Part shown: positions 4,504 through 31,474 of the stretch, in pieces | How the letters are laid out: every line of letters starts with the position of its first letter | Position numbering within the stretch: the first letter of the stretch is position 1 | Assembly: GCA_001776935.1 (NCBI GenBank) | Contig: MFDN01000009.1 | Location: forward strand, 1-34,831 | Direction of reading: 5' to 3' | Source of the DNA: Candidatus Daviesbacteria bacterium RIFCSPLOWO2_01_FULL_39_23 | GTDB lineage: Bacteria > Patescibacteriota > Microgenomatia > Daviesbacterales > UBA10151 | Length of the DNA: 34,831 nucleotides | Translations under genes and position numbers: made by a program | Notes under the pieces: model-generated | What the model was told of the DNA's origin: nothing | What the model saw: only the letters and a program-made list of their open reading frames with translations | Databases searched by the model: none

Positions 4504-5025
4504 ATGAATAAGTATATATTTGAGCATTACGACCCGATTTTCCCTAAACTTTTTAAAAAGGAACAGCAAAGGTTGAAGCAAATATTGGGGAATAAATACC
4601 CGGTTGAACACATAGGAAGCACTGCTGTTCCCGGTTTAGGCGGTAAGGGAATTATAGACATAATGGTTTTGGTTCCGAAACGGTTAATGAATCAAATCTC
4701 ACAGCTGTTACAAAAACGAGCTGGGTATGAATTTAGAGCAACTGGTGGTGACGAAGAAAGGCTATTTCACCAGCAGGATCTGTCCGATCCGCAAAAAGGG
4801 ATCAGGAGATACCATGTGCATGTTACTTTTCCGGGCAGTGAATCCGGAAAAAGGGCAATAGCATTTAGGGATTATTTAAGGAAGCACCCAAAAGATTTAA
4901 ATAGGTATGCCAAGGTCGAGCAAAAGGCAGCAGGTAAAGCTAAAGGAGACAGAGAGATTTATCTGGCAATTAAGGCGAATGTTATAGAGGAAATAATTCA
5001 AAAGGCTACAGAATCTAAATGTTAA
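4504..5025 (+). CDS. GrpB family (UPF0157) nucleotidyltransferase-like protein
   Basis: Characteristic 'VEHIGSTAVPGLGGKGIIDIMVLV' and C-terminal 'FRDYLRKHPKDLNRYAKVEQKAA'. Confidence 0.88.
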   Translation: MNKYIFEHYDPIFPKLFKKEQQRLKQILGNKYPVEHIGSTAVPGLGGKGIIDIMVLVPKRLMNQISQLLQKRAGYEFRATGGDEERLFHQQDLSDPQKGIRRYHVHVTFPGSESGKRAIAFRDYLRKHPKDLNRYAKVEQKAAGKAKGDREIYLAIKANVIEEIIQKATESKC

Positions 5026-5789
5026 CAGCAACTCTTGGGGGTTTAATCAAAGATTACCGGTTAAAAAAGAGGCTTTCACAGATGGAAGTTTCACTTCGGA
5101 TTGGCTGGAAAGATACCAGCAGGCTTTCTAAAATAGAACAGGGCAGGGTGGGAAAGCCCACCAGGGAAACCATTGATAAGGTAATTAAAGCGCTAGATTT
5201 AAGCGAGCAGGAAAAGGGTGAGTTTTTATTTACAGGCGGTTATTTACCCACTGATCAAGAAATTAAAAAAGTTATAGAGGCAGTCAGGGATAAAATACAA
5301 AACTGGCCTCATCCGGCAGTATTTATAGATTTCAGTTGGCGGTGTTTACTGATAAACCAGGCCACTGTTGAGACTTTCGGTTTTCCCAGGGATTTCATCA
5401 ATCAGGTTCCAATTGTAAAACCTAACCTGCTGGAAATGGTAATAGCCCCAAAAACTTTTATGCCGGTAGATATTTTCAAAGGAGATGATGAAAAAAATCT
5501 CAAGCCTTTTCCTATAGCCCAAACTGCACAGTTTAAGTTTGAGCAGACGGGAAGGGAGAATGATTCCTGGTATAAAAAACTGATCGGGAAACTGACCAAA
5601 AATCCGGAATTTAGAAAAATTTGGGCTAGCGTTGATCAAAGCATTTACCATAAGAAATTACTGGATTATGAATATAAAGAAATAAAATGGCCAAACAACG
5701 AAAAACCGGAACAAAAATACCATGTTTTTTCCTCAAGGTTAATAACAGACCAGAGGTTCCAGCTGACGTTATATCTACCTGCAAAATAA
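5019..5789 (+). CDS. XRE-family HTH regulator with MmyB-like C-terminal ligand-binding region
   Basis: N-terminal HTH 'LGGLIKDYRLKKRLSQMEVSLRIGWKDTSRLSKIEQGRVGKPTRETIDKVIKAL'; 'PAVFIDFSWRCLLINQATVETFGFP' resembles MmyB-type domains; overlaps the upstream stop. Confidence 0.8.
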   Translation: MLTATLGGLIKDYRLKKRLSQMEVSLRIGWKDTSRLSKIEQGRVGKPTRETIDKVIKALDLSEQEKGEFLFTGGYLPTDQEIKKVIEAVRDKIQNWPHPAVFIDFSWRCLLINQATVETFGFPRDFINQVPIVKPNLLEMVIAPKTFMPVDIFKGDDEKNLKPFPIAQTAQFKFEQTGRENDSWYKKLIGKLTKNPEFRKIWASVDQSIYHKKLLDYEYKEIKWPNNEKPEQKYHVFSSRLITDQRFQLTLYLPAK

Positions 5790-5833: not shown

Positions 5834-6589
5834 ATGGCAGTTGTTGAGGCTAACCTTACAGATTTGAAGAGAAAACTGTTCGCGCCTTTTGAGAAAATCG
5901 GCAGATTAAAACTTGATCCTGTTCAAGTAAAAATTAAAGTCGCGCAAGAAGGTTCGAAAGAACGTCAGCTGGCGGCAGATGTTATTGATTGTGTATACAA
6001 TTCATTATATAGAAAAGATAATGGCAATATTGTTAATATCGGAAGAGATCGTTTCGATAGTCTGCCGGGAACGGTCACTTTAGTTGGTACTCAAGAAGTT
6101 GCCGGTAATTTTCCGGTTGTAGTGACTTTAAGAGTAGTTTCTGATAAACATCTTGAAATTTTTGATTTTTTCCAACCTAAAGAAAATACCAGATGGCCTC
6201 ATGAAGTTGGGGATTATAAAGCCGGTGAAATAGGTAGATTAAGTTTTAACCCCGGTCTTGATTTTGTCCGGGCTAATTCTCAAGATGCTAAAGATGCAAA
6301 ATTAATTGATGATTACAAAAGAGATATCTTTAGAATGATTTATTCTTTTGGACTGGAAATTTTGAGGTCAAATGGGGTTGAAACGCCATATTATATGGTC
6401 GGTCCTCATGTTAACAGATTTCTTGTAAGTTGTGGTTTGTATGCTGTAAGGATTGATAATGTTGAGTCGAAGCGAACACCTGAGGTGGAGGCAATCAGAC
6501 AAGAATTTCGTGATTATTGGCATTCTGATAAATCTGTTAAATATCAGCCGTGGGCGTATCTAGCGCCATGGAAGTTTCAGGATAAATAA
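5834..6589 (+). CDS. Possible GNAT-fold / N-acyl amino acid synthase-like protein
   Basis: 251-aa ORF; 'EIGRLSFNPGLDF...IYSFGLEILRSNGVETPYYMVGPHVNRFLVSCGLYAVRI' suggests an autoinducer-synthase/FeeM-like acyltransferase arrangement (weak by-eye similarity). Confidence 0.45.
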   Translation: MAVVEANLTDLKRKLFAPFEKIGRLKLDPVQVKIKVAQEGSKERQLAADVIDCVYNSLYRKDNGNIVNIGRDRFDSLPGTVTLVGTQEVAGNFPVVVTLRVVSDKHLEIFDFFQPKENTRWPHEVGDYKAGEIGRLSFNPGLDFVRANSQDAKDAKLIDDYKRDIFRMIYSFGLEILRSNGVETPYYMVGPHVNRFLVSCGLYAVRIDNVESKRTPEVEAIRQEFRDYWHSDKSVKYQPWAYLAPWKFQDK

Positions 6590-6591
6590 TT

Positions 6592-7872
6592 ATGAAAAGT
6601 TTAACCCCTGAAGAAGAAAAATCTCAAGCTTATCTCGATTATCCTGGTAAGCCTAAAATTTTTGAGCCCGGAAAGATTACTTATCATGGTGAAATCACCT
6701 TTGGTAGGAAAAATATTTTATTAGACTTAAAAAGTGAAGAAACAGGTAAAAAGCCTAAAAGTGTTACCATACCTCCAGAAAAGCAGTATGATTTGGTAGG
6801 CGCAACATTGCTGGGTTTGAATGATGCTTTAGTGAGAGCTGAAAAAGGGGCAGCTTTAAGGGATAAATTGGAAACAGTCTTGGAGCATTATCAACCTGGG
6901 GATAGAAAGTATGGTGTTTATGTTTATTATCCTAATTCTGGTGATTTAGTCCAATATGCTCCTAGAGAATGGCATAGATTAGCCTTGGTAACTAGCAACT
7001 CTACTTTATATCTTGATCCTCAGAGACAGCTGGGGTGGGAAGAAGTTCGAGCAAAGTTTGATAATTTATTGATAGCAGTAGCAGGAGCTTCGGTAGGTAG
7101 CAATGTAGCTAGGGCTATTGCTATGGATGTCAGGCCGGAAAAGTTAAAAATCGGGGATCCTAACTTATTCAAAGTCAGCAATGCTAATAGAGTATGGTTA
7201 TCGTATGAGGATATAATAGTCTCAAATGCCAGAGCCCAGGAGCTCTTATACCCTTTAGGACTAAAAAATAAAGCTATAGGTACAGCTGAGAATATCCACA
7301 AAGTTGATCCTTTTATGGACATATATGCGTATTTTGAAGGAGTAGATTCAGACAATCTTGCCTCTTTTGTTGGAGGTAATCGGGTAGAGCCCGCAGCAGA
7401 CGTGATAGTTGAGGAAACTGACCAGCCGGACGCAAAAATGGCGATCCGGTTAGAGGCACGAAAGCATGGAAAACGCGTACTTATGGTTTCAGATATAGGA
7501 TCCTGGGTTCAGGGCGATATCAGGCCTTTTGATCTTGAGCCTTCAACCTCCTTGGCTTATGATATTTCAGATGATGAGCTTTTCGAAAGACAAAAAGCAG
7601 TTCGCGAAAAGCCAAGCCTCGAAACTTTTCTAAAATTTATAGAAGGCTGGATTGGCCCAGAATTTCTTAAAAGCGGAGAGTTTGGTGATTTGATAACTGG
7701 CAAGCTGCCGAAATGGACAGCCAGTATGCCCCAACTTGGTTCTACAGCTGGAGTAGCAGCAGGAATAGTTGCAGAGATTGTTGCCCGATCAGCTTTAGGT
7801 TATAAATTTCCAGAAAGGTTCATTATTGACAAACGGGAGCTTAAAGTTCAAAGCTTCGGGGAGCTAATTTAA
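6592..7872 (+). CDS. E1-like (ThiF/MoeB/HesA) adenylyltransferase family protein
   Basis: Rossmann motif 'LLIAVAGASVGSNVARAIAMDVRPEKLKIGDPNLFKVSNANRVWLSYEDI...NARAQELLYPLG' typical of the ThiF superfamily. Confidence 0.75.
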   Translation: MKSLTPEEEKSQAYLDYPGKPKIFEPGKITYHGEITFGRKNILLDLKSEETGKKPKSVTIPPEKQYDLVGATLLGLNDALVRAEKGAALRDKLETVLEHYQPGDRKYGVYVYYPNSGDLVQYAPREWHRLALVTSNSTLYLDPQRQLGWEEVRAKFDNLLIAVAGASVGSNVARAIAMDVRPEKLKIGDPNLFKVSNANRVWLSYEDIIVSNARAQELLYPLGLKNKAIGTAENIHKVDPFMDIYAYFEGVDSDNLASFVGGNRVEPAADVIVEETDQPDAKMAIRLEARKHGKRVLMVSDIGSWVQGDIRPFDLEPSTSLAYDISDDELFERQKAVREKPSLETFLKFIEGWIGPEFLKSGEFGDLITGKLPKWTASMPQLGSTAGVAAGIVAEIVARSALGYKFPERFIIDKRELKVQSFGELI

Positions 7873-7875
7873 ACT

Positions 7876-9003
7876 TTAAAGCACGACTTTTTCTATAGGT
7901 AATCTTGGTGAGTGCGGTCGTGTTTCTTCTGCTTTCCCTGTTCGAAATAGAGTAACTAGTTTTTCTTTTGTACCAAGTAATAATCCTAGAGGCCTGCTTA
8001 CAAAACTTACTTCAGCAAGCCCAGCGTGGACTGCCATGGCTAATCCATTTTTCTCTAAAGTCAACGCAATGTCCTGTAACGCCATTCCTGCTTTTATCCA
8101 ATAGAACGGTTGATCTTTAGAAGCGGTTATTCCGCCTATTACAGATGCTGACTCTATTCCCGCTTTGCTTGCAACTGCAAGGCCGGCTTTTTCAGTTGCG
8201 GTAAGTTCAACTTCCTTGAGCAGTCCTTGCGCAAATCTTTGTGCAGCTTCATTTTGTAAACCAAAAGTGTCGCCCGGCATACCAAGAGGAGATTTTGTAT
8301 CATTTGGAAAAAACCATCTGCCCAGTTCATCTGAAAAACCTTGATTATTGACTACATAGTTGTCTGCTTGTGCTTGAAATTCAGCTATTAATCGGATTGC
8401 GCCCCGTCCTCGCATGTCTTCACGACTAAAAGTATGTAAACTGACTTGGTTGTTTGTACAAATTTGAGAAAGATCTAAATTTAAATCTCTATTCATTAAG
8501 AAGTCGCCTGTGTATTTTCCTCTATTCATTCTTCTGGTAAAAATAGCTTCGAATTGCGCTCTGTCAACGTTATCTGCAGATGCTTCTGCCAGCAGGTAGA
8601 AGTTAGCAACCGGGATAAATTTTTGGGAGGTATTTTTGGGTTTCACAGATTTAGGGTTAATTTCAGTAATATCGATTTTAGGAGTGAAACCAAAATATCT
8701 TGTGGCAATACTCATATTTGTTATCAAACAACCTATACTTATGCAAGCCTGTCTGCCGTCAATATCAGAAGCAGGTAATACACGCTCTTTATCCAAAAAA
8801 ATCGAAAAACTGTTAGTCTCAGGTTCAATTTTGATTCCCCATGGTTGAGTATTGTGGGAGCTGGCTGCCAATTGCCCGCAAGTCACAAGATATTTTAGCT
8901 GTTGTGCTTGAGTGAGATGAAAGAAGTTTTCCGGCGTTAATTTTGGTGTTTTCCAAATTTGATAATTTTCTCCAGGCTTAATGCCTTCTGATTCTGTATA
9001 CAT
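7876..9003 (-). CDS. Nitroreductase-family (Acg-like) FMN-binding protein
   Basis: 'QLKYLVTCGQLAASSHNTQPWGIKIE...LPASDIDGRQACISIGCLITNM' typical of the family; C-terminal 'GLAMAVHAGLAEVSFVSRPLGLLLG'. Confidence 0.75.
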   Translation of the reverse strand: MYTESEGIKPGENYQIWKTPKLTPENFFHLTQAQQLKYLVTCGQLAASSHNTQPWGIKIEPETNSFSIFLDKERVLPASDIDGRQACISIGCLITNMSIATRYFGFTPKIDITEINPKSVKPKNTSQKFIPVANFYLLAEASADNVDRAQFEAIFTRRMNRGKYTGDFLMNRDLNLDLSQICTNNQVSLHTFSREDMRGRGAIRLIAEFQAQADNYVVNNQGFSDELGRWFFPNDTKSPLGMPGDTFGLQNEAAQRFAQGLLKEVELTATEKAGLAVASKAGIESASVIGGITASKDQPFYWIKAGMALQDIALTLEKNGLAMAVHAGLAEVSFVSRPLGLLLGTKEKLVTLFRTGKAEETRPHSPRLPIEKVVL

Positions 9004-9087: not shown

Positions 9088-11316
9088 ATGCTATTTTTAG
9101 CTGTTACTTTGTTTGTAGTCTTGTGTAATATATCACTTGGTTTAATTACGCTTTTTAAAAATCCTAAAAGCGCATCAGGTATCTTATTTTTTATTCTTTC
9201 AATCATCCTCGCGTTATGGGCAATCACAAATTATTTTTCTTTGCAAGACCTCCCTCCTGAAACAATTCTTTTTTGGATTAGGGCAGTAATGTTTGTCACA
9301 GGAGCAATGTTTGCTGTGCTTTACCTGCTGACAGATACTTTTCCTAAAAATAGTTTAAGCATTGGCCGTATACGTCTTGTTTTAGTTATCGGTTTTATAT
9401 TATTGACACAGATTTTATCTACAACTGATTTAGTTTTTCAGAGAGTAGAAGTCAATAACGGTGCGGTAAATCCAATACCAGGCCCGGCTATACCAATTGT
9501 GGCTGTTAATTTTGTAGGTTTTTTGCTGTTAACTCTAATAACCTTATACAAAAAAAATAGGTCCAGCATAGGATTAGAGCGGATTAGGTTAAAGTATTTA
9601 ATTTTTGGGATTACCTTAACTTTTATATTGGCGATTACCACAAACTTTATTTTTGTAGTCTTTTTAAAGCTTACTTCTTTTGTTGCATTAGGGCCTTTGT
9701 TTGCGCTAATACTGGTAGGCTTTATTGCTTATGCAATAGTCAAGCACAGATTCCTAGATATAAGGTTGGTAGTAGCAAGATCAGTAAGCTATTTCCTTTT
9801 AATGTTGATAGCTGGTGTTTTTTATGCAAGTGGACTTTTTGTTGTGGGAACTTTTATTACAAAGCAACCAAATACTTCAACTAATCTTATTACTTCAACA
9901 ATCCTTGCTCTAATTATTGCCCTTTCTTTTCAAACCTTTCTACGATTTTTCGAGAAGTTAACAGACAGTATTTTTTATAAGGATCATTACAGTCCACAAC
10001 TTCTTTTAAGTGCGCTTGGGCGTATTATGGCTTCGACACTGAACCTTAACGAACTTTCAACTAAACTTCTTAAAGAGTTAGTTACACAGATAAAAATTTC
10101 TGGTGGATATATTGTTATCAAACATAATTTATCTCCTATTAAGATAATAGCTGTAGGAGTGGAAAAGCAGGTTCAGTTTAAAGAGGAAGAAATTCAACTT
10201 TTAATTCGTCAAGCCGGGGAAGAAAACATTATAATTTTCGAAGAGCTTTCGGAATCCGGAATTAAAACAATTATGAGAGAGAATAACCTTAGTATAATCT
10301 TGCCTTTAGTGATGGAAGGAGAATCTATGGGAGCTATTTTGTTGGGAGGAAAATCCTCGGGAGAAATTTATTCGGAGGAAGACATTAACCTCTTAAAGAT
10401 ATTAGGACCAGAAGCTGCAGTTGCCATTAGAAACGGGCTTTCCTATGAGGAGATTAAACGATTCAATATTAGGCTTAGTGAAGAAATCAAAAGTGCTACA
10501 GTAGATTTACAGGAAGCAAATAGCAGGCTGAAAACAATTGATAAATTAAAAGATGACTTTGTATCCATTGCATCTCATGAGCTTCGTACTCCGATGACAG
10601 CTATCCGTTCCTATGCCTGGATGGCTTTGCATCGTTCGGATGTGCTATTGTCGCAGAATCTGGAAAAATATGTCACCAGAATTTTAATCTCCACCGAGCG
10701 GTTGATTAATCTGGTCAATGATATGTTAAATGTCTCAAGGATTGAGTCAGGTAAAATTGAAATTAAACCTGAGCCCGTTGATCTTATCTTGCTTATTAAA
10801 GATATTATTGATGAGGTTTACTTCTCAAAATCCGAAGAGAAAAAAATTAGCTTTATGGTGCTTGAAAAACAAACTCCCAAAGTTTTTGCCGATCCTGAAA
10901 AATTAAGGCAGGTATTTTTGAATTTGGTGGGCAACTCTTTAAAATTCACGCCCAACGGAGGCAGGATTATTTTTGATTTTTTTACTGACGGCAGGGTGGT
11001 TGAGACTTCTGTAACGGATTCCGGAGTGGGAATTTCCAAAGAAGATTTATCTAAATTGTTTAACAAATTCTCAAGGCTGGATAGTTCCTACACTGCAGCA
11101 GCCACTTCCGGCGGCACAGGTTTAGGGCTTTATATTTCTAAAAATTTAGTGCAACTTATGCACGGTAAAATTTGGGCTTCATCTGAAGGCTTGGGCAAAG
11201 GAACAACTTTTACGGTATCTTTACCGGTTGCAAGTGCAGAGGTTTTAAAAGATATTGAAAAATACAGTGTAGCGCCTAAAGGAGAAGTTAAAGGGTTGGA
11301 GCCTGTAGCTATTTAG
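9088..11316 (+). CDS. Sensor histidine kinase: N-terminal multi-TM (7TM-type) sensor, GAF-like, HisKA, HATPase_c
   Basis: H-box 'FVSIASHELRTPMTAIRSY'; N-box 'LVGNSLKFTPNGG'; G-boxes 'DSGVGISKEDL', 'GGTGLGLYISKNLV'. Confidence 0.93.
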   Translation: MLFLAVTLFVVLCNISLGLITLFKNPKSASGILFFILSIILALWAITNYFSLQDLPPETILFWIRAVMFVTGAMFAVLYLLTDTFPKNSLSIGRIRLVLVIGFILLTQILSTTDLVFQRVEVNNGAVNPIPGPAIPIVAVNFVGFLLLTLITLYKKNRSSIGLERIRLKYLIFGITLTFILAITTNFIFVVFLKLTSFVALGPLFALILVGFIAYAIVKHRFLDIRLVVARSVSYFLLMLIAGVFYASGLFVVGTFITKQPNTSTNLITSTILALIIALSFQTFLRFFEKLTDSIFYKDHYSPQLLLSALGRIMASTLNLNELSTKLLKELVTQIKISGGYIVIKHNLSPIKIIAVGVEKQVQFKEEEIQLLIRQAGEENIIIFEELSESGIKTIMRENNLSIILPLVMEGESMGAILLGGKSSGEIYSEEDINLLKILGPEAAVAIRNGLSYEEIKRFNIRLSEEIKSATVDLQEANSRLKTIDKLKDDFVSIASHELRTPMTAIRSYAWMALHRSDVLLSQNLEKYVTRILISTERLINLVNDMLNVSRIESGKIEIKPEPVDLILLIKDIIDEVYFSKSEEKKISFMVLEKQTPKVFADPEKLRQVFLNLVGNSLKFTPNGGRIIFDFFTDGRVVETSVTDSGVGISKEDLSKLFNKFSRLDSSYTAAATSGGTGLGLYISKNLVQLMHGKIWASSEGLGKGTTFTVSLPVASAEVLKDIEKYSVAPKGEVKGLEPVAI

Positions 11317-11364: not shown

Positions 11365-11754
11365 ATGGAAGGCGATCAACAAAAGAAAATACTCATAGTA
11401 GAGGACGATCAATTCTTAAGGGAATTTTACCAGGAGCTGCTACAGGCAGAAGGTTATTTTGTGGATGTGGCGGCAGACGGAGAGGTGGCTTTGCAAAAAG
11501 TTCAGAACAATGAATATAACCTGGTTCTTTTGGACATCATGCTGCCTAAAAAAGACGGGGTGCAAATACTCCGGGATTTAAAAGTTAAAGGGCCTAAGTC
11601 TCCTGATGTCACTATTGTGGTTTTAACCAATTTGGGCCAGGACATGGTGATTAAGGAGTGTTTTGATTTAGGGGCAGCAGGGTATTTAATAAAATCTGCC
11701 CTAAACCCTGACCAGGTTTTAACAGAAGTAAAAAGCTACTTACAAAAAAGCTAA
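11365..11754 (+). CDS. Receiver-only response regulator
   Basis: 'KILIVEDDQFLREFYQELLQAEGY...LVLLDIMLPKKDG...VVLTNLGQ...AGYLIKSAL'; no output domain. Confidence 0.92.
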   Translation: MEGDQQKKILIVEDDQFLREFYQELLQAEGYFVDVAADGEVALQKVQNNEYNLVLLDIMLPKKDGVQILRDLKVKGPKSPDVTIVVLTNLGQDMVIKECFDLGAAGYLIKSALNPDQVLTEVKSYLQKS

Positions 11755-22602: not shown

Positions 22603-23601
22603 ATGCCCAACCCTACAAAAGAAAATATAGAAACTCCTCCTCTTTTTTCCAACATGGATTTGATAGATGACTTCTTTCTTTTCCTCCAAACAAATAACTA
22701 TTCCCCTGCAACTACCTATCATTATAAAAACGATCTTGCTATATTTGATAATTTTTTAAAATCCAGAAATTTAAGAGTTAAAGATTTGGATAAACGTTTA
22801 ATATTTGAATTTAAGGCTTATCTTTCATCCGACGAGAGACAGACTGCTACTACTCATCAGGAAGGAGCTATAAGATTATCCTCTGCCAGTATAAACAGAT
22901 GTTTATCCGCAGTCAGAGCTTATATCAGGTTCTTAATCGAACAGGATTATGATACTCCGGTAGTCCCTGATCAATTTAAAATGGTCAAACGCGAGCGGAC
23001 TCATCCAAACGTTGCTGAACTGGGCGAGTTGATATCTCTGATCGAATCACCGTCAAGTATAGAGCAGGATCAGGTCATAGCTGTCCGCAATAGGGCTATC
23101 TTGGAGGTTTTGTTTGCAACAGGGATGCGTATTTCAGAACTTGTAAATTTAAACAGGAGGGATTTGAATATAGAAGGAAAGATTTTTATTACCGGTAAAG
23201 GCCGGAAACAAAGATTTGTATATCTTACGGAGCGGGCTAAGTTTTATTTGAACCAATATTTGACTTTGAGGAATGATAATCAGCAAGCCTTATTTATTCC
23301 GACTAAAACCAGAAGTAAAGACAAGCTATCCTCAAGACTTACTCCCAGATATATTCAAGAAAGACTTAAAACTTATAGGGAAAAACTAAGAATAAATTTG
23401 CCAACTACCCCGCATTCTTTTCGTCATGGATTTGCTACCTATTTGGCAGAAGAAGGCGCATCACCGGCAGCGATACAGATATTGCTTGGCCATGAATCTC
23501 TAAATACTACAACCAGGTATGTAAGTGCATCTGACCGTTTCGCCCAGGAGTCGCACAGGAAGTATCATCCTTTGACTGAAAGATCTGATAATGGTAAGTG
23601 A
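22603..23601 (+). CDS. XerC/D-like tyrosine recombinase
   Basis: 'ATGMRISELVNLNRRDL', 'TPHSFRHGFATYLAEEGASPAAIQILLGHESLNTTTRYV'. Confidence 0.93.
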   Translation: MPNPTKENIETPPLFSNMDLIDDFFLFLQTNNYSPATTYHYKNDLAIFDNFLKSRNLRVKDLDKRLIFEFKAYLSSDERQTATTHQEGAIRLSSASINRCLSAVRAYIRFLIEQDYDTPVVPDQFKMVKRERTHPNVAELGELISLIESPSSIEQDQVIAVRNRAILEVLFATGMRISELVNLNRRDLNIEGKIFITGKGRKQRFVYLTERAKFYLNQYLTLRNDNQQALFIPTKTRSKDKLSSRLTPRYIQERLKTYREKLRINLPTTPHSFRHGFATYLAEEGASPAAIQILLGHESLNTTTRYVSASDRFAQESHRKYHPLTERSDNGK

Positions 23602-24127: not shown

Positions 24128-24201
24128 TCGCTTAAAGAGCATCCTTGTCGCACAATATTGTTGTTTCCCCCTTTTTTCTATTTTGTGTTACTATCGAATT
24201 A

Positions 24202-26349
24202 ATGGGGCTTTTTGGCTATAAGTTAAAACTTTACGAGTTAATTACTTTCGCGATCCTTATTATTCTTATATTGGCGATCCCCTCTTCTGTTTACTTAGTA
24301 AAAAAAACACAAATTTTAAAAAGTAAGGCAACGAGTAATTTTAATGTTGGAGTAAATATTGTTGGAATAACTCATTTAGGACCGGATGATATGGAAGCAA
24401 ATTTAGCAGAGATAGCGAGAATGGGAGGAAAAGTAGTCAGGGTTTTTGCTCCTAAAGATGAAGTATCTCATGAGGTAGCTGCCCAGAGATTAGATGATTT
24501 TTTGAGTCGTGCACAAAGGTATGGAATTACTGTTATTGTTGCTTTGATTGATTTTTACGGCAGTGGATACAGGCCGCAAGGCACTGAAGGTTTTTATACT
24601 GATAATTTTAATGGTATCCCTCTCTTAAATCATGACTTTTTTGCAGGTGGATATAGGGGCGCTTATAAGCAATTTATTGAGACAGTTGTCTCCCGTAATA
24701 AACATCATTCCAACATTTATGCCTGGGAGATTGGTAATGAATTGAAAGATGATAAAAGCCCGGAAACATTTATCGATTTTATGAAAGATATTGCTTCAAC
24801 TATAAAAAATCTTGATCCGGGTCATTCGATTGCTTCGGGTATGTTAAGTGCTGGCCATGCTAATTTATCACCGGAGGCTCTTTACAATGCTGTACCTGAT
24901 ATAAATATTGTGACGATTCATATGTATAACGGCAACCGGGCCGGCGAACAAGATACGGCTTGGGCTCAAGTCAATGGTAAAGTTTTTATAGATGAAGAGG
25001 CAGGATATTCCGGAAGCGGTGATCGCACCTCACAAATGAGAGATGAAATAGAATTCTGGAAGAGCCGCGGAGCAGCAGCTATATTACAGTGGGGATTTAT
25101 AGCAGGGGGCTTGGGAGATAATGGATTCGGTGACAGGGATTTTGGTATGGATACCATTTGGCATTCAGATTACAATAATTTGTTTTCCTTATATCAATCA
25201 TTTAACGGTGGTGGTAATCCAGCTCCTCCGCCCGGTGGAGGCAGTTGCAATATCGATTATCAATCCCCTAGTTTAAAAGACAGTTGTTCTGCCTGTCTTT
25301 CTTCTAAAGATCCGGGTTTGGCCGGCAGCTTTAAGAGTTTGAATCCTTCTAAGTTCAACAGTTGTTCCACCAAAGAGCTTTTGGCTTACTGGTGCAACGG
25401 CGGCATCAGTCCCCAGGCTATGAAAGATTGCCTGAAATGGAAAAGCGCCTGCGGCGCAAGCTGTGCCGGCGAGTGGGTTATGGCAGATGCAAATTGTCAG
25501 GATAGTTGTTCAAATTGTGTTTTGCAGTATAGGGACGATATTTTACCTTTCTTTCTGCAAAATCAATGGGATGTCCGTTGCCAAAATTATTCCAAGATTG
25601 TCAGCAACTGGTGCGGGATTGATCCCAAAGGTTGCTCCGACGTCAAAAACAATAACTGTAAATCAAGTTGTTCCGGCGGCGGCGCAACAGTTTCTCCAAG
25701 TCCTGCCGTAGGCGGCACTATCTATGGAGTAATTTGGGATGATACCAAAGGCAATACCAAACAACCTGACGGAGTCAGGCAACCTGATGAGCCTTTAATT
25801 TCCGGTATTAAAGTCTGTGTCAGGCAGCTTACTTCCTCCGATCCTGCAAATTGCACCGTCACGCAGGATAAACTTAATGATGCAAAGGGCAACTATAAAT
25901 TAACAGGAGTAGCAGCAGGCAGCCGTAAAGTCTTTGTTGATAGCAGTTCTTTTGGAAGCTGGGCACCGGTTAATCTCACTGAAAGAGCTACTAATCCTGC
26001 TGCTTTACAGGCCGGCAAAAGCGCCAGCGCTTCTTTTTACTTTAAACCAATCCTTTCAAGTCCTGCTCCGTCTTCTTCTCCCTCTCCCGTGTCATCCCCT
26101 ACACCTACACCAACTCCAACTCCTACACCCACGCCATCCCCATCCCCTACACCTACACCTACACCAACCCTGCAGTTATCTTCTGAACAAATTAAATTCG
26201 ATTTGAATAAGGATAAAAAGATCAATAGTATAGATGTTAGTTTATTCCTTGAATTTTGGCGAAACGACAGTTATTCCCAAAAGTACGATTTTAATAATGA
26301 CGGGGTAATTAATACGATAGATTATGCCAGCCTGCTAAGTAATTTTTAG
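24202..26349 (+). CDS. Secreted GH5-like glycoside hydrolase with two Cys modules, SdrD-B/SpaA-like domain, Pro/Thr linker and C-terminal type I dockerin
   Basis: TIM-barrel-like 'NIYAWEIGNELKDD' and 'KVFIDEEAGYSG'; C-terminal 'FDLNKDKKINSIDVSLFLEFW...YDFNNDGVINTIDYASLLSNF'. ATG at 24202 (MGLFGYKLKLYELITFAILIILILAIPSS) preferred over the tracked TTG at 24145. Confidence 0.82.
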   Translation: MGLFGYKLKLYELITFAILIILILAIPSSVYLVKKTQILKSKATSNFNVGVNIVGITHLGPDDMEANLAEIARMGGKVVRVFAPKDEVSHEVAAQRLDDFLSRAQRYGITVIVALIDFYGSGYRPQGTEGFYTDNFNGIPLLNHDFFAGGYRGAYKQFIETVVSRNKHHSNIYAWEIGNELKDDKSPETFIDFMKDIASTIKNLDPGHSIASGMLSAGHANLSPEALYNAVPDINIVTIHMYNGNRAGEQDTAWAQVNGKVFIDEEAGYSGSGDRTSQMRDEIEFWKSRGAAAILQWGFIAGGLGDNGFGDRDFGMDTIWHSDYNNLFSLYQSFNGGGNPAPPPGGGSCNIDYQSPSLKDSCSACLSSKDPGLAGSFKSLNPSKFNSCSTKELLAYWCNGGISPQAMKDCLKWKSACGASCAGEWVMADANCQDSCSNCVLQYRDDILPFFLQNQWDVRCQNYSKIVSNWCGIDPKGCSDVKNNNCKSSCSGGGATVSPSPAVGGTIYGVIWDDTKGNTKQPDGVRQPDEPLISGIKVCVRQLTSSDPANCTVTQDKLNDAKGNYKLTGVAAGSRKVFVDSSSFGSWAPVNLTERATNPAALQAGKSASASFYFKPILSSPAPSSSPSPVSSPTPTPTPTPTPTPSPSPTPTPTPTLQLSSEQIKFDLNKDKKINSIDVSLFLEFWRNDSYSQKYDFNNDGVINTIDYASLLSNF

Positions 26350-26414
26350 GAAGAGAAACGTTGACAAAGTTACTATATATAGTTCACTATTAATTGGAAG
26401 GCCTATCATCATAA

Positions 26415-29162
26415 ATGGGAAAATTGTTGGATAATATTAAAAACGAAATAATAAACTTATTTCAAAGTAAAAAAAATCTTGTTAATTTACTACTTTTGGG
26501 GATAATGATTCTGGCTCTTCCTTTGACTGTTAAGGTGGTGCGAGAGCAGCAGATAGTTCAATCCCGGGCTGTTAATCCGCCGATTGTTTTTAAAGGAGAT
26601 AATGTTTCTCAAAAAGATGGCAAATGGGTGGCATCAAAGCCGCAAATTACCCTTGAGCTTACCTCTCCTTTTGGCCCACCTGCAGGAGTAGGTATAAATA
26701 ACCCTACTCCTTCGCCTTCAGCCGGAAACCCCACTCCTTCTCCTTCTCCTTCTGTATCTCCCTCCCCCAGCGCTGCAGGCAGAGCCTGTTCAGGAAATGC
26801 ATGTACAGATTGTATTTTAAACAAACGGGATGATGTTTTAAATTATTATAAAAATAACGGTTGGGACATCAGTTGCGCAAATCAGACAAAGGTTAAAGAT
26901 GACTGGTGTAAGATCGATGCGTCAGGTTGCCAAACTGTTAAAAGCGGCGCCTGTGCTTCTGCCTGCAGCACCACCTCTTTTATTCCGTCAGGGGAAGGCT
27001 TTGCGTTGTTTTCACCGGTTAAAACAGCATATGCTGCTGAATGTGAGTGTGAATATGTAGATTCAGCGGCTGTGAGTGGACATAATGAGTGTACCAGCGG
27101 TCAGGCAGTTTACTCGGGAAACTGCACTGCTCCTAATTACAACCCTGGCTGTTCTGCATTTAAAAGATGCGTAGAGCCTGTAACTTCCTGCCCGGCAGGT
27201 CAGGATAAAGTTAAAGTAGATTTTAATACCAGTAAAGGTTACCTTGTTAATAATACAATTGTAGGATCAGACTTAAATCCATATAAAGGAACCGGGGAAT
27301 GCGGTTATAAATATTATGTTTGGAAATCTACTTTACCTAGTGGCGAGTATTGTGTTACATACAGTTTTGGTAAATGGGATGATCAAACCAAATGTCCGAA
27401 ACAAACCGGTTCCCCTCCTCCTGCATCCGTTCCTCCTGGCGGGTCAGTCACTACAAAGTGCGGCACTACAAAAACCTGGGCACAAATTGATGCAGAACTC
27501 AAAACCGCCGGATGGCCGGGTCCTTTTGATCACAGCCAGAATGAATTAACAGCATATAACAATACTGTTGTATGTCCCAGCGCTTCTCCTTCCTCAGCTC
27601 CTTCTTCTTCCCCGGCTGTTTCTCCTTCACCGCAGGGAGCGACAACTGTTGCGTTCAGGGTTGCAGAAAACCCGGCTGATTTTGCTGAAACAGGTTCAAA
27701 CGGCTGGCAAGTTTATACTTCTCATCCTATGAAAAACATCAGCTTTGAATTCAAAGATAAAAAACCGGGACAAAAGTCCGTGTTTGTAGAATTTAAGGAT
27801 TCAACATTGCCGGCTCCTAATGTTGAAAGAAAAATTGAACAAATAACACTTTTGGGTTCTGGTCCGGCAATTACAGGTTGTTCTTTGAACTTTGAAGATA
27901 CAGGTGCTGTGTTTGTATTGAGCGGACAAAACTTTGGTTCTGATAAAGGAGCTATCAAAAGCGGTGAAACAAGTTTATCAATAAGAGAGTGGAAAGATGA
28001 CAGCGTTAAGGTGGTGTGGTCAAATGCTCCGCAAGGAGTTGCGATTCCCATAATTTTGACCAGCAAGGACGGTCAATCAAGCCAGGAGGCTCAATGCAGT
28101 GCAATTTCTCAGCTTGCTTTGGGAGCTAAGTTTTTCTGCAGGGCGCCGTCCACTCATGATATGGATGATGTGGATATAACTTTGGCAGGTGTTTTTAAAG
28201 ATGGCACAAAGCTAAATCAAAAAATCCGAATAAACAGGGATGGCAGTATTGCAGGCTTAAATCAAAAGCTTGAGGCAGGTAAAAGATACAGACTATCAAT
28301 TAAGGCTCCGGGAACTTTGCGAAGGACGGTTGAGTTTACAGCAAGCGGTGGGACTACCAATATTCCTGATTTCGTTTTACCTGTAGGTGATATTTTTCCT
28401 GCTGATGGTGGAGATGGCGTAATTAACAGTTTAGATAAGGCGGAATTAAACCGCCAGTGGATTATCTCGCAATCTGCAAGCGGCAGGTCCGGAGATTTTA
28501 ATAGGGATGGACGGGTTAATTCTATTGACTGGGCCTGCATGAGATTTGATTTTGGAGATTCGGATCAGGAAGTAGCTGTGCCTGGTGCGCCGGTTGTTTC
28601 TCCTTCCCCAAGCGCCAATCCTTCGGTTTCTCCTTCCCCAAGCGCCAGCCCAAGCCCTAGTCCGAGTCCCACTATAACCCAGGTGGTTAGCCTGTCTCCT
28701 CAAACATTAACCTCCGGTGCATCTCTTGCCAAATTATGGACTACAACATTTTCTAATTCTGCAGACTTTAAAAATATTAAGAATGCCTTTATCCTTATTT
28801 CTGTAAATGGAAGCAATAAGCCGGCCACAGATCCTACATTTTTCAATGGATACTATAATGTGGCTGACAATAAATTTTATGTCTGGGATCCGGGTAAAAC
28901 AGGCGGAGAAGGTTGGATAGGAGGATTTACGCCGGGAAGTGCAGGATCAACAATTGCTGTTAATTCTTTTGGCTTAATTCCGCTTTTAAACGGCAATGGC
29001 ACCAATACAAACGGAACCGGAGGCAAAAACCTGGTCTTAAATTGGTATATCACATCAAGCGGTGGAGCAAAAGGCAAAACTTACAAAATATTCTTAAGGG
29101 CGCAGGGAAAGGAAGGAACTGATACAGGCTGGGTGGAGAAAGGAAGCTGGACAATTAATTAA
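26415..29162 (+). CDS. Large secreted dockerin-containing protein with Cys module, IPT/TIG-like domain, internal dockerin and a C-terminal beta-rich domain
   Basis: 915 aa; N-terminal TM; 'GDGVINSLDKAELNRQWI...GDFNRDGRVNSIDWACMRFDFGD'; 'SGPAITGCSLNFEDTGAVFVLSGQNFGSDKG'. Confidence 0.82.
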   Translation: MGKLLDNIKNEIINLFQSKKNLVNLLLLGIMILALPLTVKVVREQQIVQSRAVNPPIVFKGDNVSQKDGKWVASKPQITLELTSPFGPPAGVGINNPTPSPSAGNPTPSPSPSVSPSPSAAGRACSGNACTDCILNKRDDVLNYYKNNGWDISCANQTKVKDDWCKIDASGCQTVKSGACASACSTTSFIPSGEGFALFSPVKTAYAAECECEYVDSAAVSGHNECTSGQAVYSGNCTAPNYNPGCSAFKRCVEPVTSCPAGQDKVKVDFNTSKGYLVNNTIVGSDLNPYKGTGECGYKYYVWKSTLPSGEYCVTYSFGKWDDQTKCPKQTGSPPPASVPPGGSVTTKCGTTKTWAQIDAELKTAGWPGPFDHSQNELTAYNNTVVCPSASPSSAPSSSPAVSPSPQGATTVAFRVAENPADFAETGSNGWQVYTSHPMKNISFEFKDKKPGQKSVFVEFKDSTLPAPNVERKIEQITLLGSGPAITGCSLNFEDTGAVFVLSGQNFGSDKGAIKSGETSLSIREWKDDSVKVVWSNAPQGVAIPIILTSKDGQSSQEAQCSAISQLALGAKFFCRAPSTHDMDDVDITLAGVFKDGTKLNQKIRINRDGSIAGLNQKLEAGKRYRLSIKAPGTLRRTVEFTASGGTTNIPDFVLPVGDIFPADGGDGVINSLDKAELNRQWIISQSASGRSGDFNRDGRVNSIDWACMRFDFGDSDQEVAVPGAPVVSPSPSANPSVSPSPSASPSPSPSPTITQVVSLSPQTLTSGASLAKLWTTTFSNSADFKNIKNAFILISVNGSNKPATDPTFFNGYYNVADNKFYVWDPGKTGGEGWIGGFTPGSAGSTIAVNSFGLIPLLNGNGTNTNGTGGKNLVLNWYITSSGGAKGKTYKIFLRAQGKEGTDTGWVEKGSWTIN

Positions 29163-29201
29163 ACTGGTAAAAAGTTTGAAATTGTAGTACAAAATATATA
29201 T

Positions 29202-29825
29202 ATGGATTATTTTACAGATTATAAAGTTGAGCATGGGGATAAAATAAAAAAGATCTTTTCCGGACCTAAAATTATTTTTGCGATTTTAGGAATTGTGATA
29301 TTAATAGAGTTTATATATGCATTTAGGGTTCTGACGCAACCGGTGTCTGTTGCTGCGCCGTCTATTTCGCCGGCTGCTACAATTGTAAAATCCGGAGGCA
29401 GAATTTCTCTTGCTGCTCCTAAGACAAGCATTTTGGTAAAAGAAGTCATTCCTGTAAAGGTTAAGATTGAAAGCGGCGGAAATACGCTTGGCGGCGCTGA
29501 CGTGATTATTAAATATGACCCAAAAATATTAGAAGCGACACAGGGAGCAATAATACGGGGAGCTATTTTTGATGAATATCCTTTTGTATCTCTTGATTCA
29601 AAAACCGGTTTAATTTCTATTTCCGGGATAAGCAGTATCGGAGAAGGTTTTAAGGGTGCGGAAGGCGACTTTGCCACTATAACTTTTAAGGCTAAGAGTA
29701 AGGGAGCAACTTCTTTATCCGTTGATTTTCAAAAGGGATCAACTGCTGATTCTAACCTGGTGGAAAAAGATGCCTCCAGGGATATATTGGAAACCATAGG
29801 TAATCTGGAATTGAATGTGCAATGA
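29202..29825 (+). CDS. Cohesin-domain protein with N-terminal membrane anchor
   Basis: TM 'IIFAILGIVILIEFIYAF'; 'VIPVKVKIESGGNTLGGADVIIKYDPKILEATQG...GFKGAEGDFATITFKAKSKGATSLSVDF'. Confidence 0.82.
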   Translation: MDYFTDYKVEHGDKIKKIFSGPKIIFAILGIVILIEFIYAFRVLTQPVSVAAPSISPAATIVKSGGRISLAAPKTSILVKEVIPVKVKIESGGNTLGGADVIIKYDPKILEATQGAIIRGAIFDEYPFVSLDSKTGLISISGISSIGEGFKGAEGDFATITFKAKSKGATSLSVDFQKGSTADSNLVEKDASRDILETIGNLELNVQ

Positions 29826-30541
29826 AAAAATGTTTAATTTTGCTTTTTGCTTTTAGTTTTTTGTTTTTAGTGCTGCCTAAAACCGCGAAGGCAGCTTCTT
29901 TGTCCTTATCTCCTGCAACAGGAACCCTTAATATCGGCTGCACATATTCTCTGGATGTAGTGCTGGATACAGCCGGGGCGCAAACCGACGGCACAGACGC
30001 TATTTTAAATTTTGATTCCACCCGCTTTAGCATTAATTCAAACTCGATTATTCCCAACACTAATATATATCCGGATTTTCCGGGCAACAACGTAGATGAA
30101 TCAAGCGGTAAAATCACCATTTCCGGCCTTGCTTCGGTTTCCTCTGCTTTTTCGGGAAAAGGCACTTTGGCAACACTGCGTTTTGTAGTGAAAGATCAGG
30201 CGCCTACCGGAGCAACCCAAATTACGTTTGAATTTGATCCTAATGATAAAGCTAAAACTACGGATTCTAATGTGGTAGAGCGTAATACCGTGGTGGATGT
30301 GTTGAATTCAGTGACAAATGGAAGTTTCGTAATTGGCAAAGGGGCGTGCGGTAGTAATATTGCCAGCCCGCTTCCTCAGGGTGCTGATTCTGTTTCAACG
30401 CCTGCAGGTCAGCTAAAAAATCTTGACCAGCTTGTAGATAAGACCGGTAAAGGAACGGGTACTGTTGAGCTTACTTCTGTGGTGGCGATTGTGGGCGGAG
30501 TTTTGACTATTTTAGGGATTTTGGGACTGGCACTGCTTTAA
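29822..30541 (+). CDS. Cohesin-domain protein with signal peptide and C-terminal membrane anchor
   Basis: 'SLSLSPATGTLNIGCTYSLDVVLDTAGAQTDGTDAILNFDSTRFSI...AFSGKGTLATLRFVVK'; C-terminal TM 'VVAIVGGVLTILGILGLALL'; ATGA overlap with the preceding gene. Confidence 0.82.
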   Translation: MKKCLILLFAFSFLFLVLPKTAKAASLSLSPATGTLNIGCTYSLDVVLDTAGAQTDGTDAILNFDSTRFSINSNSIIPNTNIYPDFPGNNVDESSGKITISGLASVSSAFSGKGTLATLRFVVKDQAPTGATQITFEFDPNDKAKTTDSNVVERNTVVDVLNSVTNGSFVIGKGACGSNIASPLPQGADSVSTPAGQLKNLDQLVDKTGKGTGTVELTSVVAIVGGVLTILGILGLALL

Positions 30542-30544
30542 AAT

Positions 30545-31474
30545 ATGGCTGTCCTTTCTGCGCTTATTACTGATTTCTTAGAGTATTTGGAGCTTGAGCG
30601 TAATGCCTCCCAGCTCACTATCAGAAATTATGACCACTATTTGAAAAGGTTTTTAAATTTTGCCGGTGATATTGACCCCAAGGAAATTGATTTAAATTTA
30701 GTAAGAAAATTTCGGCTTTATCTATCCCGTTGGACAGATCCTGAGAGTCAGAAGAATTTAAAAAGGGTCACTCAAAATTATTTTATGATAGCTTTAAGGG
30801 CATTTTTAAGATATCTGGCAAGGATTGATGTTGTTACACTTTCAGCGGAAAAAGTGGAGCTTGGAGAAGCTGAACCGCGGCCGTTAAAAGTTTTGGATAA
30901 CTCTCAGCTTAATTCCCTTCTTGAGGCGCCGGATGTAAATAAAAAAGACGGACTTAGGGACAGGGCAATCCTGGAAACCCTTTTTTCAACTGGACTTCGG
31001 GTATCAGAACTTGCGGCCTTAAATAGGGATACTATCAATTTGGCGAGGAAAGAGTTTGGTATTGTGGGTAAAGGAGGAAAAGAACGGGTAGTTTTTTTAT
31101 CGGATAACGCTGGTGTGTACCTGGAAAAATATTTATCGGCCCGAAAAGATACCTTTAGGCCGCTGTTTATAAGGTTTCAGGGTAAAATTGATCTTACTGA
31201 GGGAGGAGAAGCTATGAGGCTGACATCCAGATCAATTGAAAGGATAGTGGAAAAATATGTCAAAATCTTAGGGCTTTCTGTAAAAGCAACTCCGCACACC
31301 CTGCGGCATGGCTTTGCCACTGATCTTTTAATAAACGGCGCAGATATCCGTTCGGTACAGGAAATGTTGGGTCATTCTAACATTGCCACCACCCAAATCT
31401 ACACCCACGTTACCAATGCCCATCTTAAGGATGTGCATAAAGCATTCCATTCAGGGAATGCGGCGGGGACGTAA
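30545..31474 (+). CDS. XerC/D-like tyrosine recombinase
   Basis: 'STGLRVSELAALNRDTI', 'TPHTLRHGFATDLLINGADIRSVQEMLGHSNIATTQIYTHV'. Confidence 0.93.
   Translation: MAVLSALITDFLEYLELERNASQLTIRNYDHYLKRFLNFAGDIDPKEIDLNLVRKFRLYLSRWTDPESQKNLKRVTQNYFMIALRAFLRYLARIDVVTLSAEKVELGEAEPRPLKVLDNSQLNSLLEAPDVNKKDGLRDRAILETLFSTGLRVSELAALNRDTINLARKEFGIVGKGGKERVVFLSDNAGVYLEKYLSARKDTFRPLFIRFQGKIDLTEGGEAMRLTSRSIERIVEKYVKILGLSVKATPHTLRHGFATDLLINGADIRSVQEMLGHSNIATTQIYTHVTNAHLKDVHKAFHSGNAAGT

Follow-up and report, generated by a model that had tools for sequence, protein, structure and literature searches.

Acyl-oxazolones of Mycobacterium tuberculosis are produced by a trio of enzymes: TyzA N-acylates tyrosine or phenylalanine, the ThiF-like TyzB performs the ATP-dependent cyclization, and TyzC, a member of the nitroreductase superfamily, carries out the desaturation with O2 (PMC10404671, PMC12856293). 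TrzAS does the same for tryptophan, with the cyclase and the oxidase fused, and an aspartate of the ThiF motif is required (PMC10404671, PMC12856293). Planctomycete and proteobacterial producers of N-acyl dehydrotyrosines possess the same trio (PMC12479983). The physiological role of acyl-oxazolones is considered a major unresolved question, and cell-cell signalling by these compounds has only been suggested, from their structure and from neighboring cyclic di-GMP genes (PMC12856293).

The stretch of DNA analysed here (the window) consists of 34,831 nucleotides of contig MFDN01000009.1 from Candidatus Daviesbacteria bacterium RIFCSPLOWO2_01_FULL_39_23, a CPR bacterium with a genome of 1.28 Mb in 15 contigs that is 98% complete. 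It contains the gene set of TyzABC, TrzAS and OxzAB, namely a putative N-acyltransferase, a ThiF-like putative cyclase (hereafter E1) and a putative flavin oxidase of the nitroreductase superfamily (Table 1). The sequence-only reading of the window had placed these three open reading frames correctly, including the 2-bp gap between the 251-aa protein and the E1 and the 3-bp gap between the E1 and the convergent nitroreductase. The cassette is wider than that reading had it: an MmyB-like regulator is encoded upstream, and a 7TM histidine kinase and a receiver-only response regulator are encoded downstream, and homologs of all three recur alongside the cassette in other genomes. The GrpB gene that overlaps the start of the regulator gene was not seen beside the cassette in other loci. 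Elsewhere in the window, a cohesin-dockerin gene set is flanked by integrase-family genes and is perhaps located on a mobile segment.

Table 1. Coordinates of the cassette genes, other features of the window, and related loci (L) in this and other genomes (G); entries without a locus handle lie in the window
Feature	Position or locus	Strand	Basis or remark
GrpB gene	4504-5025
XRE-type HTH regulator, weak MmyB/MltR-like ligand-binding domain	5019-5789	+	Pfam
251-aa putative N-acyltransferase (AHL-synthase/FeeM-like, GNAT)	5834-6589	+	conserved R100, E132, R135
426-aa ThiF/E1-like ATP-dependent putative cyclase	6592-7872	+	GxSVG 165-169, D189, N199-R200, K227, D277 conserved
375-aa Acg-type nitroreductase-superfamily flavoenzyme, putative desaturase	7876-9003	-	family-model and PDB matches
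742-aa histidine kinase, putative receptor: 7TM sensor, GAF-like, HisKA, HATPase	9088-11316	+	Pfam
129-aa receiver-only response regulator	11365-11754	+	after kinase gene
Integrase-family genes	22603-23601; 30545-31474
Cohesin-dockerin set	24145-30541		two large dockerin-containing proteins, then two cohesin-domain proteins
Acyltransferase homologues	G304 (L024/L056), G470 (L071), G563 (L072), G631 (L073), G357 (L152)		G357 copy short
Acyltransferase-clade E1 locus with divergent acyltransferase relative	L129, 965-1513
Acyltransferase-clade E1 locus with 379-aa gene	L130, 4142-5281
Apparently decayed cassette	L152 (G357), 6652-8075
FadD-like ligase	L154 (G000, the window's genome, contig 5), 1378-3756
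Ligase-type cassettes	L025-L055, L131-L153		PaaK-like adenylate ligase, E1, with or without nitroreductase, 7TM histidine kinase

The closest described systems each share part of this layout. As in the window, TyzACB (Rv2336, Rv2337c, Rv2338c) consists of three stand-alone enzymes encoded in one cluster and not all on one strand, and TyzA adopts the AHL-synthase/FeeM-like fold that we propose for the 251-aa protein, a likeness drawn, like the others to Tyz, from published descriptions. However, no histidine kinase was noted in the published Tyz cluster, TyzB is shorter than the window E1 (318 against 426 aa), and TyzC belongs to subgroup FDO-A23, whereas the window nitroreductase groups with Acg-type enzymes. 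TrzAS (Rv1356c-Rv1355c) and OxzAB likewise combine E1 and nitroreductase domains in one pathway, and the Rv1355c family is the closest NCBIfam family of the window E1, but the cyclase and the oxidase are fused there and separate in the window. The clusters for stieleriacine, thalassotalic acid and kyonggic acid (NasY, ThiF and nitroreductase) contain the same three kinds of genes close together; unlike the window, the Stieleria clusters include methyltransferases, and no sensor kinase has been described for them.

The E1 protein matches the Pfam ThiF model with 33.4 bits (cut-off, 28.1), and its best NCBIfam model is the Rv1355c family (NF005901; 3e-25, 88.5 bits); the latter score is below the family cut-off of 476 bits, and the E1 and the nitroreductase are separate proteins. 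The GxSVG, N-R, K and D residues are retained across four homologues and were matched by eye to the ATP-binding residues of ThiF, and D277, also by eye, is equivalent to the aspartate whose loss abolished cyclization by TrzS. The Pfam match and these motifs together predict a cyclase of the ThiF-like kind whose ATP-binding residues are intact. The E1 tree has long branches. One side of it holds the acyltransferase-type loci together with L129 and L130 (support 100/100), whereas the other side unites ligase-type CPR loci (see below) with actinobacterial Rv1355c-type proteins; the Rv1355c-type E1 thus falls in a different clade from that of the window. L129 and L130 have no clear acyltransferase: L129 encodes a 182-aa, very divergent relative that lacks the E..R motif, and the corresponding place in L130 is taken by a 379-aa gene that matches nothing in Pfam. 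In L152, the acyltransferase is short and the first half of the E1 runs into nitroreductase-looking sequence.

The 375-aa protein matches the Acg family FMN oxidoreductase model NF047509 over its full length (2e-50, 171.9 bits), which places it as a relative below the 199-bit cut-off of that family, and it also matches the structure of Acg (PDB 2ymv, 2.5e-6); its earlier identification as an Acg-like nitroreductase is borne out by both comparisons. The nitroreductases of five acyltransferase-type loci, including L129 and L130, which were classed by their E1, group together (100/99). In a tree that does not include TyzC, the window enzyme is located on the Acg side, apart from the TrzS-type actinobacterial fusions (100/100). 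Enzymes of the Acg side are assigned other substrates in the literature.

The 251-aa protein yielded no matches in Pfam, NCBIfam, PADLOC or PDB sequence searches. Profile searches detected homologues in five further genomes, all of the same class, and sampling of the wider phylum added nothing beyond one marginal match, so that, at this sensitivity, the family appears to be rare and lineage-restricted. No relative was found in viral contigs, and tblastn against plasmids produced chance matches only. Five members of the family have in common Y...Y, T.R.V, a leucine-rich L..F..F, W.H and E..R. With nine plasmid AHL synthases as the yardstick, hhalign aligned the five-homologue profile over 119 columns (E 9e-4, score 31.1), which brings R100, E132 and R135 into register with the invariant R69, E100 and R103 of the AHL synthases. 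Control scores were 22.0 or less for 12 unrelated families from the same loci, 11.9 for the reversed alignment, and at most 22.3 for 200 column shuffles, none of which reached the real score; when two short divergent homologues were added, the match dropped to E 4e-3. The protein does not qualify as a LuxI-type AHL synthase: it has no Pfam autoinducer-synthase match, and what it shares with the AHL synthases is limited to R, E and R and, in part, a single D, rather than the full set of invariant W, E, D and D of the LuxI-type N-terminal part. AlphaFold2 modelling of just two sequences of the family gave no confident fold (pLDDT 39 and 34), and the Foldseek matches obtained with these models are meaningless and were not used. 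The original guess of an acyltransferase finds support in the profile comparison with AHL synthases. We consider it likely but not proven, on these sequence comparisons, that the protein is an AHL-synthase/FeeM-like N-acyltransferase; a general GNAT of other function would give a similar match to the AHL-synthase profile. A FadD-like ligase is encoded next to the acyltransferase gene in L073. In the genome of the window, the sole PF00501 AMP-binding match is the 792-aa FadD-like ligase of L154, a possible source of acyl donors, which extends into an additional C-terminal domain that Pfam does not recognize.

The acyltransferase form of the cassette is represented in six genomes. L071 encodes the HTH regulator, acyltransferase, E1, convergent nitroreductase and kinase in this order, with the receiver two genes further, and two contig ends of a single MAG (L024 and L128, G304) together encode the acyltransferase, E1, convergent nitroreductase, kinase and receiver. 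In L072 and L073, the acyltransferase, E1 and kinase are accompanied by a receiver nearby, and no nitroreductase was found within the stretch read, L072 being a short contig. The HTH family of the window is found beside the acyltransferase in L071 (9e-50) and L072 (2e-50). The three enzyme genes are therefore co-conserved, with order and orientation preserved in L071 and in L024 plus L128, in agreement with the E1 (100/100) and nitroreductase (100/99) groups. The link between E1 and nitroreductase proposed in the sequence-only reading is supported as well.

A commoner form of the cassette, found in 47 of the 60 loci, encodes a PaaK-like ligase in place of the acyltransferase, and may matter more than the form seen in the window. 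Often these loci also carry a gene for an ELFV dehydrogenase (16 loci), for an aromatic amino acid lyase (13) or for an aminotransferase (6). The acyltransferase and the ligase never occur together in one locus (P 3e-5 if loci are independent, although the acyltransferase loci form a single E1 clade), which suggests that they are alternative suppliers of the acyl step that work by different means.

A histidine kinase is encoded one to four genes downstream of the E1, on the same strand, in 55 of the 60 related loci, which are spread across the phylum and many families, and none of the 149 genes located six or more positions away from the E1 encodes a histidine kinase. The 7TM sensor domain PF16927 lies within 5 kb of the E1 in 27 of 32 genomes, compared with 0.24 expected from the density of the domain, with genomes treated as independent in these linkage counts; the window kinase contains the only PF16927 match in its own genome. 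The cassette is thus not stand-alone, as had been thought, but tied to a neighboring sensor kinase. Nor is it unusual for a reduced CPR genome: E1 relatives were detected in 36 of 374 genomes of the class and in 40 of 287 sampled genomes of the phylum, where cassettes that pair an E1 with a kinase are frequent. LuxM/LuxN and CqsA/CqsS are synthase-receptor pairs in which the synthase of a small acylated signal is coupled to a multi-TM histidine kinase receptor, and the adjacency of synthase genes to a multi-TM histidine kinase that characterizes such pairs is what we observe here, both by locus and by genome. These pairs, however, lack E1 cyclase and flavin oxidase chemistry, the window kinase is not a hybrid kinase of the LuxN or CqsS type, and signalling by the cassette is putative. 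As for the regulators, the HTH protein matches HTH_31 (2e-8) and falls just short of the MLTR_LBD cut-off (25.3 against 26.3 bits); its family resembles MltR, the crystal structure of which contained a bound fatty acid. The response regulator consists of a receiver only and has no output domain.

The reading that we put forward, and regard as evenly poised, is that the cassette synthesizes an N-acyl amino acid-derived signal and is paired with a receptor kinase, forming a putative autoinducer system. With acyl-CoA or acyl-ACP as the donor, the 251-aa enzyme would acylate an amino acid at its amino group; the E1-like enzyme would adenylate the carboxylate of the N-acyl amino acid and close the ring, yielding an acyl-oxazolone; and the nitroreductase-family flavoenzyme would desaturate the latter. 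The diffusible product would then be sensed by the adjoining 7TM histidine kinase, with transfer of phosphate to the receiver protein, and the MmyB-like regulator might be an intracellular sensor of the acyl ligand. We infer the reactions and the product from homology to the characterized trio, and the signalling role, including ligand recognition, from gene linkage only. Several observations speak against this reading: the link of the acyltransferase to AHL synthases is a single profile match with no confident fold model beside it, the nitroreductase is on the Acg side and is absent from the stretches of L072 and L073, oxygen, a requirement of TyzC, is missing from many CPR habitats, and the receiver has no output domain.

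It is conceivable, if rather unlikely, that the product is a membrane or stress lipid of the cell's own (an acyl-amino acid or oxazolone) or an agent against neighbors, and that the kinase, instead of being a signal receptor, regulates production in response to a cue from the environment. The proposed roles of oxazolones include stress adaptation and, for the related N-acyl tyrosines, antimicrobial activity (PMC12856293); moreover, a regulator linked to a cluster often controls it without being a sensor of the product. About one-third of the loci read have no nitroreductase and, therefore, the final product may vary. Against this stands the position of the 7TM sensor kinase, downstream and in the same orientation in nearly all loci, a tightness typical of synthase-receptor pairs. 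The pathway could also stop before the oxazolone or be diverted from it, with the same kinds of enzymes making an N-acyl dehydroamino acid or another cyclized or conjugated acyl compound. Although we lean against this outcome too, producers of thalassotalic acid, kyonggic acid and stieleriacine carry the trio and no oxazolone was seen in them (PMC12479983), and the window nitroreductase belongs to a subgroup other than that of TrzS.

Modification of proteins or peptides, whereby the E1 would activate a ubiquitin-like protein, a ThiS/MoaD-like carrier or a short peptide in a RiPP or ubiquitin-like system, appears quite improbable. Such activation is a common role of ThiF-fold enzymes, and nitroreductases occur with YcaO in azole-peptide clusters of CPR (PMC7298704), but the 2-bp and 3-bp gaps leave no space for a small partner gene, no YcaO was found among the window proteins scanned, and neither the acyltransferase nor the E1 nor the nitroreductase has a PADLOC defence match. 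In addition, the nearest E1 relatives by profile are of the Rv1355c (TrzS) type, the substrate of which is an N-acyl amino acid. The suggestion of a peptide-modifying pathway finds no support, as neither a precursor peptide nor a ubiquitin-like partner nor YcaO was found nearby. The defence-system, RiPP and ubiquitin-like readings were dropped for want of partner genes among the annotated neighbors, although a partner might be encoded at a distance.

For the autoinducer reading, the conserved link between the synthesis cassette and the 7TM kinase across the phylum provides a receptor candidate and makes the role of oxazolones directly testable. We found no description of this cassette in CPR in the open-licence PMC literature. 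A broader proposal, which we hold with somewhat less than even confidence, is that CPR bacteria possess a widespread, previously undescribed form of cell-cell signalling that would combine a modular supply of acyl-amino acids (by an AHL-synthase-like acyltransferase, or by an aromatic amino acid lyase with a PaaK-like ligase), an E1-made oxazolone-type signal and a dedicated 7TM kinase. If the signalling reading is correct, the orphan acyl-oxazolones would gain an autoinducer function, and CPR bacteria, thought to be mostly symbionts, would gain a chemical signalling system.
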